A stretch of DNA of 38,922 nucleotides. It comes from an uncultured Lachnospiraceae bacterium. Its GTDB lineage: Bacteria > Bacillota > Clostridia > Lachnospirales > Lachnospiraceae. The translations under genes and the position numbers were made by a program. Shown here in pieces: positions 2,303 to 8,069 of this stretch; position 1 is the stretch's first letter, and every line of letters begins with the position of its first letter. The stretch lies in NCBI GenBank assembly GCA_902794825.1, contig CADBIU010000009.1:1-38922 (forward strand), given 5' to 3'. Below the pieces are notes generated by a model. That model searched no databases, was not told the DNA's origin, and saw nothing but the letters and a program-made list of their open reading frames with translations.

Positions 2303-2920
2303 TTACATAACATACTCATACACCAGCCTGTAATTATGGTCCCTGCACGCGATGACATCCGAGTTCCACAGTGGTCTGAAGTCTGTGAAAACATCCTCGA
2401 ACACAAACCCGCCGATATCGACGCCTTTGTCTGTATTCCTTAACACATAACCGTTCGGCAGCGAGAAACTTACCCGGCTCACGCCGTTTTTGAACTTCAT
2501 ACTGTCCCTGCTGATCTCGGCCAGATCTATGGTCTCCGGGTCCGCGTATTCCTGCGCGTACCACAGCATGTGGTCCCCTGTCAGTCCGAGATACCGGTCT
2601 TTCGAGAATCTCTTCCAGTCTGCTTCGCAGGCTATTTCCAGGTTGTTTACGTCAAAATATCGCTTTCCCGACGCCTTATCGAATGCACTCAGCCTGTAAT
2701 AGAAGGTATATTCGAACATATCGTTGCAGCTGTCGAACTCATCCTCCTGATCATATTCCAAAATCAGTTCGGTTTGGCCGTTGTCTGTCCGGTTCTTATA
2801 CTCTTGTGTCATGGCAAAATCCTGCTTCGCCAGACACTCTCTGCGCTGCGGAATCGGAGTCGGCTCATCAGACGTCGGAACGACCGTGATCAGGCTCCCC
2901 CGCTTTATAGTAAGCGCCAA
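2303..2920 (-). CDS. Unknown protein overlapping the kinase 3' end
   Basis: I do not recognise this protein. It is soluble, with no signal peptide or membrane segment, and the C-terminal half looks beta-rich (for example SFSLPNGYVLRN and GGFVFEDVFTDF). The full open frame is 205 residues but begins with TTG at 2920, inside the kinase gene. It overlaps the kinase by 53 bases in the +1 frame and has no Shine-Dalgarno before the TTG. The first ATG in frame is at 2812 (residue 37), preceded by AGGAT at usable spacing; that would give 169 residues and no overlap. A third reading is that kinase and this frame are one protein split by a frameshift, since a GGGGG run lies in the overlap. It probably shares the kinase transcript and may work with it. 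Confidence 0.6.
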   Translation of the reverse strand: MALTIKRGSLITVVPTSDEPTPIPQRRECLAKQDFAMTQEYKNRTDNGQTELILEYDQEDEFDSCNDMFEYTFYYRLSAFDKASGKRYFDVNNLEIACEADWKRFSKDRYLGLTGDHMLWYAQEYADPETIDLAEISRDSMKFKNGVSRVSFSLPNGYVLRNTDKGVDIGGFVFEDVFTDFRPLWNSDVIACRDHNYRLVYEYVM

Positions 2921-5060
2921 GTTCAGACCACAGCCGCATGGACGGCTCGTGCATTGTGAGCACCTGGTCAGAAAGGCTCTTACTCAGGGCACTATGCGTC
3001 CCAGCGACATCTCCCTTTTCCCAGCACTCATTTGCTTCCTCGTAGTACCTGATCATATCCTGTTCTGCCTTCAGCCTTGCGTCCACCGTGGCAATCCCGG
3101 CCAGTTCATAAAAAAGCTCTGTCTCCGGCCGGAGCCTTATGGCATCTACAGTCCAGCGCCCCCATCGCTGCTCCCAGTTCATGTACTCGATGATCCCGCT
3201 CTCTGTATAGCCAAGCACTTCATAGGGCATTGTATCTCCGTCTTCGTCGGGCAGAGGCGGCATGGAAAGCAGCAGCCTGCCGCTCGATGCTTCAAAAAAC
3301 CACAGCACATCCGCCTGCATTATGACGAGCTCTGAATCAGTACCGGCAAATTTCACATCGTCACTTTTATAATAGTGCGGATGCATGTAACTTCCGCCGC
3401 GCGGTGTTGATTCCCCATAGTCCTCATAGTCGTTCGCGTAGTCCCTGACCTCTCCGGTCCTCAGGTTTTCGATCCTGTATCCGTATTTTTCCGGTTGGAA
3501 TCTCTCTTTTGTCATATAGCCCTTAACCTGATACGTGCCGTTACTGCTCGTATCTGAAAGGGGCAGCAGCTCCTCCAGATTTCCGGGGCGCTCGTTTTTC
3601 CTGTAAGAATACACCTTCCTGCCAAGATCCCAGTTTCCTCGCATTCTTAAAAGCTTGTCCATGACCTTCGTGTGCAGGTCGCTCTCATCCGCTTTCCCGC
3701 GCAGATAAGTCATAAACGCGGCATCGCTGATCAGTCTCCTGTTCCAGCGGTGCAGCGCGTAATTATAGTGATACAGGAAAACGCTTCCGTCCCTGGAAAC
3801 CGCTTGCCTCAGAAGCTCATCGGCCTCATCATCCCTGCCGAGGTCTATATAGCTCAGCGCCTTATTGTTGAGGCTGGCCGCAGTATCTGCCGCACTTCTC
3901 GGATCACTTCGCAGGTAAGGATGGCCGCTGACTGATCGATAGATCTTTTCCAGTTCTGCTTCAATGATGCCAAAATCATGCGGACGGTCCTCCGGTTTCT
4001 CAGCCAGGCAGCAGGTTAAAAGCGCCCGAAGCGATTCCGGTATTACGACACGGCTCTTGTCAAAATATTGTCCGCAGTTCCGCCCGGCCTCCGTTCCGTT
4101 CTTCCACGGCCTTGTACCGAGATACATCTCCAGTACAGATAATGCCCAGCTGTATATATCCGTTCGGCGTGTCAGGGGCTCCCCAAGACACTGCTCTGAC
4201 GAGCAGTAGGCAGGAGTATAGCCGCCCGTCGGAGCAATAAGCGTGGCACCGGAATCTGCCCCGAAAGTGCCCGCGGGCTGCGACCCGGCCCTTTTTGCGG
4301 TATCCTCCCCTTGTTCTGCCAGCAGCTGAGTGCGCGCACGCGCAAGCCCGAAATCAGCGACCTTTGCTTCCCAGGACTTTGTCAGGAGCAGATTGTCCGG
4401 TTTGACATCCTGGTGGATCAAACGGTCTTTTGACTCATGCGCATAGTGAAGGCCTCTTGCAAACTGGATCGCGATATCCAGAAGCCGCACCTGAATGATC
4501 CGTTCCCGATCACCGCCGTTCCGTCCCTGCTCCCCTGAGATCTCGTACAGCGCGCCGTCCTCGATCCGGTTCTTGAGGCTCCCGTTTTCCATCCACTCGG
4601 AAAAAATCGTCGGGACTCCGCTTATCTCGCGGACGTAATAACAGGAAACAATATTGGGATGGAGTCCCAGATTGATCCATGCTTCGCACTCGTGAATAAA
4701 TCTCTCCTTCCGCTTCATACTGCCTTCCGAGAAAAACCTGGGCTGAGGGCGCTTCATTGCAAGATCCGTGTTCCACCCGCTGTGGTGAACCTTCCAGACA
4801 CTTCCCATACCGCCTCTGACAGCGTCGGAAATTACCTCGTAAGTATCAAGAATTCTCGTTCCCCTGACGATCTCCTCATTAGTAATGGAATCCCGTTTCT
4901 CAGCGATTCCTGCCTCAGGCTCGTCCGGCTGGCTGTCCTCTTCCTGAATCGATCCTTTGCTCATACTCAGGCTCATGCTAAGGCTAAGACTCTCATCCTC
5001 AAACTTCTCCTCAGGCGCTGTTTTTTTATTCTTATTCCTGAACAGGTCCAAAAATCCCAT
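2868..5060 (-). CDS. Hanks-type Ser/Thr protein kinase with TPR-like and C-terminal beta-rich regions
   Basis: A cytosolic protein kinase of about 730 residues. The start is ATG at 5060; AAGGAG lies 7 bases before it, whereas the ATG at 5066 is too close to that site. In numbering from 5066, the kinase domain spans about residues 75-375: glycine loop GGMGSVW (85-91), catalytic Lys in AMK (105), HQDVKPDN (218-225, with HQD replacing HRD), VADFGLA (236-242), and a GGYTPAYCSSEQ activation-segment end before RRTDIYSW. The N-terminal tail (20-50) is acidic with SLS/SMS repeats. Residues about 395-450 look like TPR helices (SLNNKALSYIDLGRDDEA). The C-terminal third is beta-rich with an extra helical segment near 690-715. 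There is no transmembrane anchor or PASTA domain, unlike the usual PrkC of Firmicutes. The HQD change keeps the catalytic Asp, so activity is plausible. Confidence 0.88.
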   Translation of the reverse strand: MGFLDLFRNKNKKTAPEEKFEDESLSLSMSLSMSKGSIQEEDSQPDEPEAGIAEKRDSITNEEIVRGTRILDTYEVISDAVRGGMGSVWKVHHSGWNTDLAMKRPQPRFFSEGSMKRKERFIHECEAWINLGLHPNIVSCYYVREISGVPTIFSEWMENGSLKNRIEDGALYEISGEQGRNGGDRERIIQVRLLDIAIQFARGLHYAHESKDRLIHQDVKPDNLLLTKSWEAKVADFGLARARTQLLAEQGEDTAKRAGSQPAGTFGADSGATLIAPTGGYTPAYCSSEQCLGEPLTRRTDIYSWALSVLEMYLGTRPWKNGTEAGRNCGQYFDKSRVVIPESLRALLTCCLAEKPEDRPHDFGIIEAELEKIYRSVSGHPYLRSDPRSAADTAASLNNKALSYIDLGRDDEADELLRQAVSRDGSVFLYHYNYALHRWNRRLISDAAFMTYLRGKADESDLHTKVMDKLLRMRGNWDLGRKVYSYRKNERPGNLEELLPLSDTSSNGTYQVKGYMTKERFQPEKYGYRIENLRTGEVRDYANDYEDYGESTPRGGSYMHPHYYKSDDVKFAGTDSELVIMQADVLWFFEASSGRLLLSMPPLPDEDGDTMPYEVLGYTESGIIEYMNWEQRWGRWTVDAIRLRPETELFYELAGIATVDARLKAEQDMIRYYEEANECWEKGDVAGTHSALSKSLSDQVLTMHEPSMRLWSELGAYYKAGEPDHGRSDV

Positions 5061-5070
5061 AACCATTCTC

Positions 5071-5113
5071 CTTCACACAAACGACCTCAGGAGCAGTTTG
5101 TTCCTTCATTATA
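5071..5113 (-). promoter_or_regulatory. Candidate promoter and leader motif of the kinase gene
   Basis: TATAAT lies at 5113-5108 on the minus strand. The best -35 (TTGCGT) is 19 bases upstream, so it is weak. The leader holds CTGAGGTCGTTTG (5090-5078), which recurs in the same place in the nitrilase-gene leader near 14100. The shared stretch begins at TTGTATAATGA and runs about 38 bases with small differences. A regulator site is inferred. Confidence 0.5.
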
Positions 5114-5117
5114 CAAC

Positions 5118-5160
5118 AAAAGCAGATAGTGTACGCAATACTGGATACCTATCTGCTTTT
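5118..5160 (-). terminator. Probable terminator after the DAC-domain gene
   Basis: A 12-bp perfect stem (5118-5129 with 5149-5160) encloses 19 bases that can add three more pairs. It begins 23 bases past the 5183 stop. On the minus strand the 3' arm ends in TTTT followed by GTTG, so it is of moderate strength. It overlaps the kinase promoter region, separating the two transcripts. Confidence 0.6.
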
Positions 5161-5182
5161 TATCGTTATTTCAATCAGTCTC

Positions 5183-6301
5183 TTATACAAGCGGCAGCGC
5201 CACATTGTCATACACAACGACTTTACCGTCATGCTGCGTGCACGCCTCGATCGTTCCATCCTGTGAAATGACGAAAGCCACGCTGTCCGGAACTGCGCTG
5301 CAGAACCTGTATCCGGCCCTGTGCCGCATTCCATTGTCCTTGAACTGCTTGCGTGTGTTTTCTGTATTGTCAAATTCCATAAACTGCATCGCGGGGTGCT
5401 TGCTGCCCATCTTATCCACCAGCGTCTCAGCCCCGAACCCAAGCAGATGAAGATCCTTTGTCAGCACCACTGATCCGTCCACCGACGTCAGCTTCGCGAT
5501 CAGATCCGCGTAAGTAACGATTTCTTTCTCCCGGGCGTTCCCCGACAGTTCTTCCAGCCGCTCGCTGTCGCTGAACAGATACCCGGAAGGCAGCCGGTAC
5601 TTGATGTCGACAAATTCCTTGCACGACTCCTCATCCGGCACGATCAGAATAGCGCCCCCGTGGCGGTAATCACTCACCATCCACAGGATCCGGTAGAGCA
5701 GCCTCAGACGTTCTTTAGCACTCACATGCGCGCCCTTTTCGAGCTGCTGTGACACCAGTGTAGATGTGAAAGTATCCGTCCGGTAGAAAACGCAGTGCCC
5801 GGCCCGGTAATTTACAAGCGATCCCTCGCCGAAACAGGCCTCCAGTTCTCCCGGCCCGTCAACCAGAATATTGGGGATCCTGGGCATCCTGTTGCCCGTA
5901 GTAAGCTCGCGGGTGATGATCTTTTGCCATGTTGTGTAAGAAGCTATGATCCCGATCGCTTTAAACGGCCTCTCGCTGATATCCAGTACCAGATAACTCA
6001 TGTCCGGATTCAGCGCTGGCGCGAGCTTGTTCATTTCTCTGGTATTGAATTCGATCGGCTTACTGAAAAGAAGCGTGTGCGAATAAATGTATGCGCTCAG
6101 CAGTTCCGAATCCGGCCGGATAAAGCACACTCTGAACGAAGGGAATCTTCCCTCCTCGCGCATGCAGCTGATATTTAGCAGAGTCTGGCACACATCCTCC
6201 AGCACATCTTTTGAAGGAAGCCGCTGATCATCTTCAAAGGAATCCCCCATCCTCTCATAGCAGTTGTATATTGCTTCGACAAAATCTGTAATACCGCCCA
6301 T
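5183..6301 (-). CDS. DAC (DisA_N)-domain protein, putative noncanonical diadenylate cyclase with N-terminal sensor
   Basis: A soluble 372-residue protein. Residues about 255-360 read as a diadenylate cyclase domain: SVDGSVVLT (273-281) matches the DGA motif with Ala changed to Ser, and GMRHRAGYRF (324-333) matches the GTRHRAA nucleotide-binding motif, followed by DSVAFVISQDGTI, the typical next strand. In DisA and CdaA these motifs bind ATP and metal to make c-di-AMP. The N-terminal 250 residues are not DisA's helical or HhH parts, nor CdaA's membrane segments. They resemble the sensor-like DACNV class attached to divergent DAC domains, including HGGAILIVPDEE (214-225). It starts one base after the stop of the 6303 gene, so the two are translationally coupled. 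Whether it is an active cyclase is inferred. Confidence 0.72.
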   Translation of the reverse strand: MGGITDFVEAIYNCYERMGDSFEDDQRLPSKDVLEDVCQTLLNISCMREEGRFPSFRVCFIRPDSELLSAYIYSHTLLFSKPIEFNTREMNKLAPALNPDMSYLVLDISERPFKAIGIIASYTTWQKIITRELTTGNRMPRIPNILVDGPGELEACFGEGSLVNYRAGHCVFYRTDTFTSTLVSQQLEKGAHVSAKERLRLLYRILWMVSDYRHGGAILIVPDEESCKEFVDIKYRLPSGYLFSDSERLEELSGNAREKEIVTYADLIAKLTSVDGSVVLTKDLHLLGFGAETLVDKMGSKHPAMQFMEFDNTENTRKQFKDNGMRHRAGYRFCSAVPDSVAFVISQDGTIEACTQHDGKVVVYDNVALPLV

Positions 6302-6302
6302 T

Positions 6303-6869
6303 TTAGTTCTCGAGGTCCTCCATCCGGCAGATTATAAAGCCAACCTTGATCACATCCGGAATCTCCGCGCTGGGGAACCTTTCATCAAATGCCTTGACCA
6401 TCTTTTCTCCATCCGGAGAATTCGTGTATGCATAGAACATATCAGAGAAATCCTCATACCGCCTGCAGAATCTCTCTACCGAATCGCCTTTCTGCGGAAT
6501 CTCGAGTTTAAAAAACTCCTTCGCGAGTTTCTCGTCCCAGATAGCAAACCTTGGATTGATCGTATGCACCAGAATACTCGCTGCTGTCATGACGTTTCCG
6601 TTCTCGACCTCCATCAGCTTTTCAAAAGCCTCCCTGAAGGATATGTTGCTCATACGCTTCATCTCTTCCAGCAGATAGAAAAACTGTGTCATGAACTTTT
6701 CCGAGTATCCGTCGTTAAGCCTGTAAAGGTCGCAGTATGTGCCCTGAAAAGTATAGTCATCCGACACATCTGTATTAAACAGCGCTCCCGTGACAAATTT
6801 GTATTTCCTGAGCATATCAGCAATCGCATCACTGGCTGCAATTTCCTTAACATTCGCTATATCGATCAT
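6303..6869 (-). CDS. Unknown protein co-transcribed with the DAC-domain gene
   Basis: I cannot assign a family. The start is placed at ATG 6869 because GAGGAGGAAGG lies directly upstream, which makes the nine-codon extension to 6896 unlikely; this gives 188 residues. It is helical and soluble, with no signal peptide. The segment NGNVMTAASILVHTINPRFA followed by IWDEKLAKEFF faintly recalls helical DNA-glycosylase-like proteins in which an N-x-A-x-K-x-L helix precedes PxxFPIWD, but catalytic residues are not evident. It ends one base before the DAC-domain start, and both are read from the promoter at 6945-6974. Tight coupling suggests a partner or sensor of the cyclase-like protein. Confidence 0.7.
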   Translation of the reverse strand: MIDIANVKEIAASDAIADMLRKYKFVTGALFNTDVSDDYTFQGTYCDLYRLNDGYSEKFMTQFFYLLEEMKRMSNISFREAFEKLMEVENGNVMTAASILVHTINPRFAIWDEKLAKEFFKLEIPQKGDSVERFCRRYEDFSDMFYAYTNSPDGEKMVKAFDERFPSAEIPDVIKVGFIICRMEDLEN

Positions 6870-6944
6870 ACCTTCCTCCTCATGTGGTGAGCTCAAAACA
6901 GCGGCATATGACTTCTAAAGTAATGTGCTTTTGCCTGTCCTTAA

Positions 6945-6974
6945 ATTATACAACAGATCAGACGCCTCTGTGAA
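6945..6974 (-). promoter_or_regulatory. Promoter of the unknown/DAC operon
   Basis: On the minus strand TTCACA (6974-6969), an 18-base spacer and a perfect TATAAT (6950-6945) make a good sigma-A promoter. The leader to the ATG at 6869 is about 70 bases. The 160 bases between this operon and the isomerase gene hold nothing else I can identify. Confidence 0.72.
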
Positions 6975-7056: not shown

Positions 7057-7854
7057 TCACGGTGTATAGTCCGCCCACAATTCCGGGCAACGGGCCGGGT
7101 CTGCAACAAATAAGAATCTGTCTTTATCTTTCTGAAACTGCGTATAGACCGGCACCCCGGCTTCCAAAGAGAAATCTTCCCAGGTCCGCGCATCCTTTAT
7201 GATGAGCTCTCCCCCTTCATAGGCAGGATTCCTGCGCCATTTCAGGGTTCCGTCTTCCACATAGGGGTAAAAAGCGATTCCCCTGTGTCTTCTCACCTCT
7301 CCGTAGTCAAAACCGTAGTCCCGCACGCACCAGGCGCCGAAGCTCATGTTCTGACTGACTCCCGCATTGATCGCGGCGTGGACACATCCGGGAGGTACGA
7401 TGACAACGTCGCCGGGGTGCGCGTAAACCGCATAGCATTTTCCCGGGTTATCTGAAGCTGATTCCTGCATATAGATCACTGCTTCCCCGTCCCAGATCTC
7501 GTATACTTCCGGCGTTGAAGCGCCGCAGGAGGCGCTCACCGCGTGCATATGTCCCTGGGACCGGACCGGTTCCTTGCCGATCAGGCCGGCCGCATAAGTC
7601 ACCGCGCCAAAAAGAAGATTTCTCTTTACGATCTCCTCTCTGTCAGCCTTTATCCCCACATCCATCACGATCGCATATACCTCGTCCGGACCTTCGCTCA
7701 ATGGATCTGAAAGGGATGCTCTGATAACGTCAAGCCTCCTGATCTCAGGTTCCGGTCCGAAAACGTCTTTACCGTATTGGAAGCCGAAGGGTTCCCTCGT
7801 AGCCTTCAGGTCAAAACCCGGATAAAACGCCATGTCTTTTTCTATACTTTCCAT
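7057..7854 (-). CDS. Cupin-type (archaeal-type) glucose-6-phosphate isomerase
   Basis: A cytosolic enzyme of about 265 residues, predicted to interconvert glucose-6-phosphate and fructose-6-phosphate. It belongs to the metal-dependent cupin GPI family known from Archaea and some bacteria, unrelated to ordinary Pgi. The metal site is visible as SQGHMHA, then PEVYEIWDGEAVIYM, then VPPGCVHAAINAG, giving the H-x-H, Glu and His ligands. The early GFQYGKDVFGPEPEIRRLD segment is also typical. The frame opens with GTG at 7875, overlapping the upstream stop as GTGA. ATG at 7854 is preferred because GGGGAG lies 10 bases upstream, but the coupled GTG remains possible. It is the last gene of a three-gene set with the 65-residue protein and the PHP phosphatase. 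Confidence 0.85.
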   Translation of the reverse strand: MESIEKDMAFYPGFDLKATREPFGFQYGKDVFGPEPEIRRLDVIRASLSDPLSEGPDEVYAIVMDVGIKADREEIVKRNLLFGAVTYAAGLIGKEPVRSQGHMHAVSASCGASTPEVYEIWDGEAVIYMQESASDNPGKCYAVYAHPGDVVIVPPGCVHAAINAGVSQNMSFGAWCVRDYGFDYGEVRRHRGIAFYPYVEDGTLKWRRNPAYEGGELIIKDARTWEDFSLEAGVPVYTQFQKDKDRFLFVADPARCPELWADYTP

Positions 7855-7871
7855 TGCCTCGCAGCTCCCCG

Positions 7872-8069
7872 TCACTTGATAAACCCAAGTTTTCTTGCCT
7901 GCTCGGTGTACTTGGGGAGATCTTCCAGTGAAACTTTCACGTTGTGCTTTCTTGCAAAATGCATGAACTCCATAATAGTGATCTTGCCGTCCGCCACGAT
8001 CTGGGCCACCTCTTTCTGAAGTTCCTTGTCTGTTTCATACTGCTTAACCAGTTCATCTACTGTTGCCAT
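7872..8069 (-). CDS. Small 65-residue protein, weakly Nif11-like
   Basis: A small, charged, helical protein with an excellent ribosome site (AAGGAGG, 7 bases before the ATG), so it is almost certainly translated. The pattern KELQKEVAQI, then EFMHFARKHNVKVSLEDL, loosely follows the Nif11-type arrangement, where a D-x-x-L-x-x-x-L helix is followed by E-F-x-x-x-A-x-x-x-x-x-x-x-x-x-x-D-L. There is no Gly-Gly cleavage site or Cys-rich core, so it is not an obvious peptide precursor. It overlaps the isomerase frame by four bases if the GTG start is used, and lies 38 bases after the PHP phosphatase. Its function is unknown; a regulator or chaperone role is speculation. Confidence 0.72.
   Translation of the reverse strand: MATVDELVKQYETDKELQKEVAQIVADGKITIMEFMHFARKHNVKVSLEDLPKYTEQARKLGFIK

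Follow-up and report, generated by a model that had tools for sequence, protein, structure and literature searches.

A putative soluble DACNV-DAC diadenylate cyclase and its apparently lineage-specific neighbour gene in an uncultured Lachnospiraceae bacterium

Among the diadenylate cyclases (DACs), CdaA is recognised by an N-terminal transmembrane region and an adjoining cdaR gene, and DisA by a DAC domain that is followed by a C-terminal helix-hairpin-helix. Another arrangement is seen in a plasmid protein of Hymenobacter monticola (WP_243520307.1), which is annotated as a “putative sensor domain DACNV-containing protein” and carries a DACNV domain (PF21751) followed by a DAC domain (PF02457). 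Such sensor domains are reportedly described in the census of Galperin (J. Bacteriol. 2023, “All DACs in a row”). Our search of the literature, which ran without most subscription papers, found no experimental work on DACNV, nor did it find the names DACNV, DACNH, DACNG, DACNK, and DACND in this meaning. The DAC gene of the CBASS-linked defence system DS-2 likewise lies outside the housekeeping setting: it is reported to be located next to a CBASS pair and to be required for phage defence, and mutating two of its predicted catalytic residues abolished the protection (PMC13092281). Accessory DACs can thus be important for more than housekeeping. This has no direct bearing on the DACNV-DAC gene described here, beside which no CBASS CD-NTase or effector gene was found among seven window ORFs (Pfam) or three (PADLOC).

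The gene of interest (positions 5183..6301, minus strand) encodes a 372-residue protein, which we regard as a putative diadenylate cyclase on the basis of the ORF call, Pfam matches, family alignment, and dN/dS values. The window, in other words the whole stretch of 38,922 nucleotides that was analysed, is contig C9 of a 2.74 Mb genome that consists of 127 contigs and is given as 84.6% complete. Residues 24-119 (5945..6232, minus strand) match the Pfam model of DACNV, a probable sensor domain, far above the curated cut-off (PF21751, E 3.2e-19, 69.4 bits against 27), and the DACNH model cross-matches weakly (E 0.0076). The preliminary description had spoken of an unassigned sensor; the sensor, however, already has a name, by which the plasmid genes are annotated. 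The match to DAC itself is confined to residues 317-354 (5240..5353, minus strand) and stays below the cut-off (PF02457, E 3.3e-5, 23.9 bits against 27), although the extent of the domain, when read by eye from its motifs, is about residues 200 to 365. NCBIfam returned no match, and PADLOC a single weak one (E2, E 0.029). Because the DAC cut-off is missed, and because the annotated Hymenobacter protein also falls just short of it (E 1.6e-5, 24.9 bits against 27), we file the 372-residue protein under DACNV and treat its membership of the DAC family as probable.

Both catalytic motifs named in the preliminary description are present at the residues given there and in the order expected of a DAC domain, DG(A/S) and then RHR: D275-G-S (residues 275-277; 5471..5479, minus strand) and R326-H-R (residues 326-328; 5318..5326, minus strand), the latter 51 residues past D275. 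We aligned 19 sequences, namely those of the window, four close relatives, thirteen further members of the genus, and one Hymenobacter plasmid protein; the fragment L027 was omitted, as was the gene of Hymenobacter volaticus, which lies in two ORFs, N-terminal and C-terminal (L058:5037-6279). All 19 match both the DACNV and the DAC model at E <= 0.01. With identity down to 24%, D275, G276, R326, H327, R328, S346, Q347, and D348 are invariant in all 19, whereas the residue after the DG is serine in 15 and alanine in four. The DGS motif, noted in the preliminary description as standing in place of DGA, is ordinary variation within the family. The distance from the aspartate to RHR is 51 residues in each of the 18 sequences from the genus, 50 in the Hymenobacter protein, and 31 in the CdaA of the same genome; the low DAC score may plausibly be due in part to this altered spacing. 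One homologue (L040:8271-9470, in G284) is longer by 28 residues, which are inserted in frame ahead of the DG motif, within the C-terminal half.

How does this protein compare with the described enzymes? It shares with the H. monticola protein the order of the two domains, the invariant DG and RHR, and nearly the same spacing; the two differ in that they are 24% identical overall, come from hosts in the Bacillota and the Bacteroidota, and carry DGS and DGA, respectively. With CdaA it shares DG(A) and RHR in the same order, but it has DACNV in place of a transmembrane region, SQD where CdaA has SEE, and the wider spacing, and its neighbours in the window are the gene of a 188-residue protein and a kinase gene, not cdaR. 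Averaged over 19 residues, its Kyte-Doolittle hydropathy peaks at 1.13, compared with 2.32 in the CdaA of the same genome, so that hydropathy gives no membrane segment, in agreement with the earlier statement that a CdaA-type anchor is missing. The absence of the DisA-type region was also borne out, since no helix-hairpin-helix family matched in Pfam at E <= 1 and the DAC stretch lies at the C-terminus.

Fourteen same-genus CdaA proteins were used for a profile, drawn from 30 loci after 16 had been dropped because no plus-strand frame held the strings TRHRA and DGA. When the family profile was compared with these by hhalign, only the RHR block was aligned, over 27 columns (E 5e-4 with probability 31.8; the reversed-alignment control gave E 0.18 with probability 0.3), a match that is not convincing alone. 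A search of the PDB with the family profile gave two hits, an unrelated pyocin first (E 0.009) and a diadenylate cyclase second (E 0.1), and a search with the single 372-residue sequence found nothing. Structure prediction from five rows, with 91-96% identity to the window, gave a mean pLDDT of 37.8 for the cyclase, a model not usable for the proposed check of whether D275 and RHR share one pocket, and 45.6 for the 188-residue protein, whose low-confidence model is helical.

Within the genus, the cyclase gene was found in 18 of 62 genomes (18 of 61 in another search). A sample of the family covered 334 genera with 397 genomes, of which 319 had a completeness of 90% or more and a contamination of 5% or less; the genome studied here was the sole match, and none was found in the 333 other genera. 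It was again the only match among 250 genomes searched with the DACNV model, and among 398 in a search across the phylum. When the single protein was scanned against 84,980 species, each represented by one genome, a search whose reach is limited to close relatives, it returned the four Lachnospiraceae loci (L004-L007). Outside these genomes, DACNV-DAC genes were seen on two Hymenobacter plasmids. A cdaA tree of 60 genomes could accommodate 17 of the carriers, which form two groups (7 of 11 rows and 10 of 12), and the carrier label has to change five times on it. Faster evolution of the cyclase in the clade of the window was looked for and none was seen; the tree behind this comparison is star-like, and 6 of its 16 inner branches have good support. 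A phage origin was rejected because neither protein of the pair has a phage match and 16 viral pattern matches gave no confirmed viral contig.

The genome studied here also encodes a canonical CdaA (G000:C35, L001:1102-1998). A DAC match above the cut-off is present in 59 of 61 genus genomes, and the two genomes without it are both carriers of the DACNV-DAC gene. One of them (G303) has a CdaA piece, residues 1-135, that stops at a contig end, and the other (G293), whose assembly is given as 92% complete, has neither cdaA nor cdaR. Replacement of CdaA by the DACNV-DAC protein was considered for these two and set aside, because of the contig end in the former and because the joint loss of cdaA and cdaR in the latter fits an assembly gap. 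CdaA was found in 17 of the 18 carriers, and in these the DACNV-DAC gene is an addition to CdaA. Two genomes, G282 and G292, contain a further DAC-like frame of 489-495 residues (L148:1053-2537 and L149:2426-3892) that scores 37-38 bits, above the cut-off, and keeps IDGA, with GARYNS in the place of RHR.

Upstream of the cyclase gene on the same strand lies a gene for a 188-residue protein (6303..6869, minus strand; ORF call, profile searches, and dN/dS), to which no family was assigned. The preliminary description was correct that the 372-residue ORF starts one base after the stop of this ORF: the gap is position 6302, and it is also one base long in all four closest relatives at this locus, which are uncultured Lachnospiraceae genomes (L004-L007). 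Between the window and these four relatives, the dN/dS of the cyclase gene is 0.043-0.056; it is 0.113 against the more distant L028 and saturated against L033. For the 188-residue gene, the ratio is 0.065-0.105 (ten pairs from five genomes) and saturated against L059. Purifying selection thus acts on both genes.

A promoter-like site, TTCACA-18-TATAAT, is located upstream of the pair (6945..6974, minus strand) and has 11 of 12 consensus matches. The -10 element, TTGTATAATTTAA, is conserved in all five genomes (the window and L004-L007), and the -35 element TTCACA in four of the five, L004 being the exception. What had been called one good promoter therefore stands as a conserved site, although the scanned region is no richer in such sites than its shuffles (three observed, 2.8 expected); conservation is better evidence here than the consensus scan. 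On the 3' side of the cyclase gene, a hairpin at about 5113..5166 (minus strand; -23.5 kcal/mol and z -6.34, both for the window only) may serve as a terminator. A comparable inverted repeat, judged by eye, is present in three of the four relatives, L005 lacking it, and the consensus terminator scan of the region reported no terminator, this hairpin included. Since one base separates the two genes and a single promoter-like site is conserved ahead of them, they are probably co-transcribed and translationally coupled. The transcription unit is taken as the pair alone, because in L005 the downstream kinase gene is missing at the locus while the pair is retained. As for the operon proposed earlier, the arrangement is real, but the two genes adjoin in only five close genomes of the 18 that carry the cyclase.

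Some features of the flanking genes should be mentioned. A Ser/Thr kinase-TPR gene (2303-5066 of the window) is split into overlapping frames of 732 and 205 residues, whereas it is a single frame of 920-938 residues in L004, L006, and L007; the split reflects either a frameshift or a sequencing error. The kinase (2868-5066) matches the PADLOC defence kinases mad6 (E 2e-38) and PD-T4-6 (E 6e-30), but its score of 86 bits is far under the NCBIfam MAD6 cut-off of 460, and these matches may reflect only general kinase likeness. On the other side, a GPI/cupin gene (7057-7875) is intact in the window and in L007, and L004, L005, and L006 have just a part of it or fragments.

The 188-residue protein has no meaningful family match in Pfam, NCBIfam, PADLOC, or PHROGs, and no match among phage or plasmid records; a plasmid origin was rejected on the latter ground. 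Its match to a cis-prenyltransferase in the PDB (E 4e-4) was dropped because a nine-sequence profile did not retain it at E <= 10. Homologues with at least 49% identity occur in 10 of 62 genomes, and distant relatives (22-30% identity) sit in other settings. In two genomes, a protein of 1342-1360 residues is encoded directly upstream of the homologue (L061:3753-7832 and L062:3520-7548), and the L061 copy has sub-threshold matches to DUF4062 and a STAND NTPase.

Could this protein be a dedicated regulator that forms one module with the cyclase? Such a role would be compatible with the cyclase reading, and its odds are separate. In its favour, the one-base gap is kept in five of five close genomes, the -10 element is conserved, both genes are under purifying selection, and nine of the ten genomes with a homologue also have the cyclase. 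On the other hand, 13 of the 18 cyclase carriers have no gene of this type at the cyclase locus (at some of them, little sequence is available on one side), the homologue and the cyclase lie on different contigs in four genomes (G272, G293, G302, and G303), and G270, a genome that is 77% complete, carries the homologue and no cyclase. The raw co-occurrence, nine of ten, looked strong, but the nine homologue genomes that can be placed on the cdaA tree all lie inside one clade of 12 genomes, so that shared descent accounts for it, and a test of independent pairs had only two pairs, with which significance is unreachable. These counts neither show nor exclude a functional link. Conservation of the neighbourhood, the check proposed in the preliminary description, was found in five close genomes and not for the homologues that lie on other contigs. 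A neighbour specific to the lineage fits the data better than an obligatory partner does; in the thirteen further carriers, the cyclase behaves as a stand-alone gene. We consider the dedicated regulator unlikely. It is somewhat more doubtful still that the protein was recruited in this clade as a translation-coupled regulator of the DACNV cyclase, an arrangement that would create a two-protein c-di-AMP input genetically separable from CdaA.

As to the 372-residue protein itself, our preferred reading, to which we give a probability of roughly 0.6, is that it is a soluble diadenylate cyclase and belongs to the DACNV-DAC class. An intracellular signal would most likely be bound by the N-terminal DACNV domain, and this domain would control the C-terminal DAC domain, which would condense two ATP into c-di-AMP. 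The gene would thereby add a conditional input to a c-di-AMP pool that is otherwise supplied by CdaA, the housekeeping enzyme of the membrane. Catalysis, product, sensing, and the control of the cyclase by DACNV are all predicted from sequence. The cyclase reading is supported by the DACNV and DAC matches (E 3e-19 and E 3e-5), the conserved motifs, the purifying selection, the RHR block aligned with CdaA, the diadenylate cyclase among the PDB hits of the profile, and the canonical DAC gene elsewhere in the genome; the sub-cut-off DAC score and its short extent, the spacing of 51 as against 31, SQD as against the SEE of CdaA, the lack of PDB hits for the single sequence, and the pyocin as best PDB hit count against it. 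The profile searches therefore left the earlier, motif-based proposal partly strengthened, with DACNV above its cut-off and a DAC match that is reproducible across the family but sub-threshold.

Several of these weaknesses would also fit a protein that retains the DAC fold, has lost catalysis, and acts as a nucleotide-binding receptor for c-di-AMP or ATP: the weak DAC score, the SQD in place of SEE, the larger spacing, and the fact that a CdaA is already in the genome. However, all 19 aligned sequences retain DG and RHR at identities as low as 24%, and an inactive domain would be less likely to do so, for which reason we regard such a receptor as improbable. The family-wide residues near the motifs that are unlike those of the genome's own CdaA (the GFG.E block, SQD, and the spacing of 50-51) could instead point to a DAC-fold nucleotide cyclase that is active and yields a product other than c-di-AMP, which seems to us very unlikely. 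A role in defence was also considered, prompted by the paper on the CBASS-linked DAC, a TIR-domain gene near the L040 homologue, the weak PADLOC E2 match, and the defence matches of the kinase. The surroundings of the cyclase gene vary in the genus, with an acetyl-CoA hydrolase/transferase gene in L032 and a GntR/UTRA regulator in L035, for example; because each sub-group has different neighbours, and the majority of those scanned or recognised are metabolic or regulatory, this role was not adopted. In short, the sensor of the proposed cyclase is already named, its DGS is ordinary, its upstream neighbour is lineage-specific, and the cyclase reading is likely.

The change in motif spacing extends across the family, and it poses a structural question that can be tested. 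The genus, with two carrier clades, other clades without the gene, and CdaA in 17 of the 18 carriers, offers a natural comparison for the role of an accessory source of c-di-AMP.
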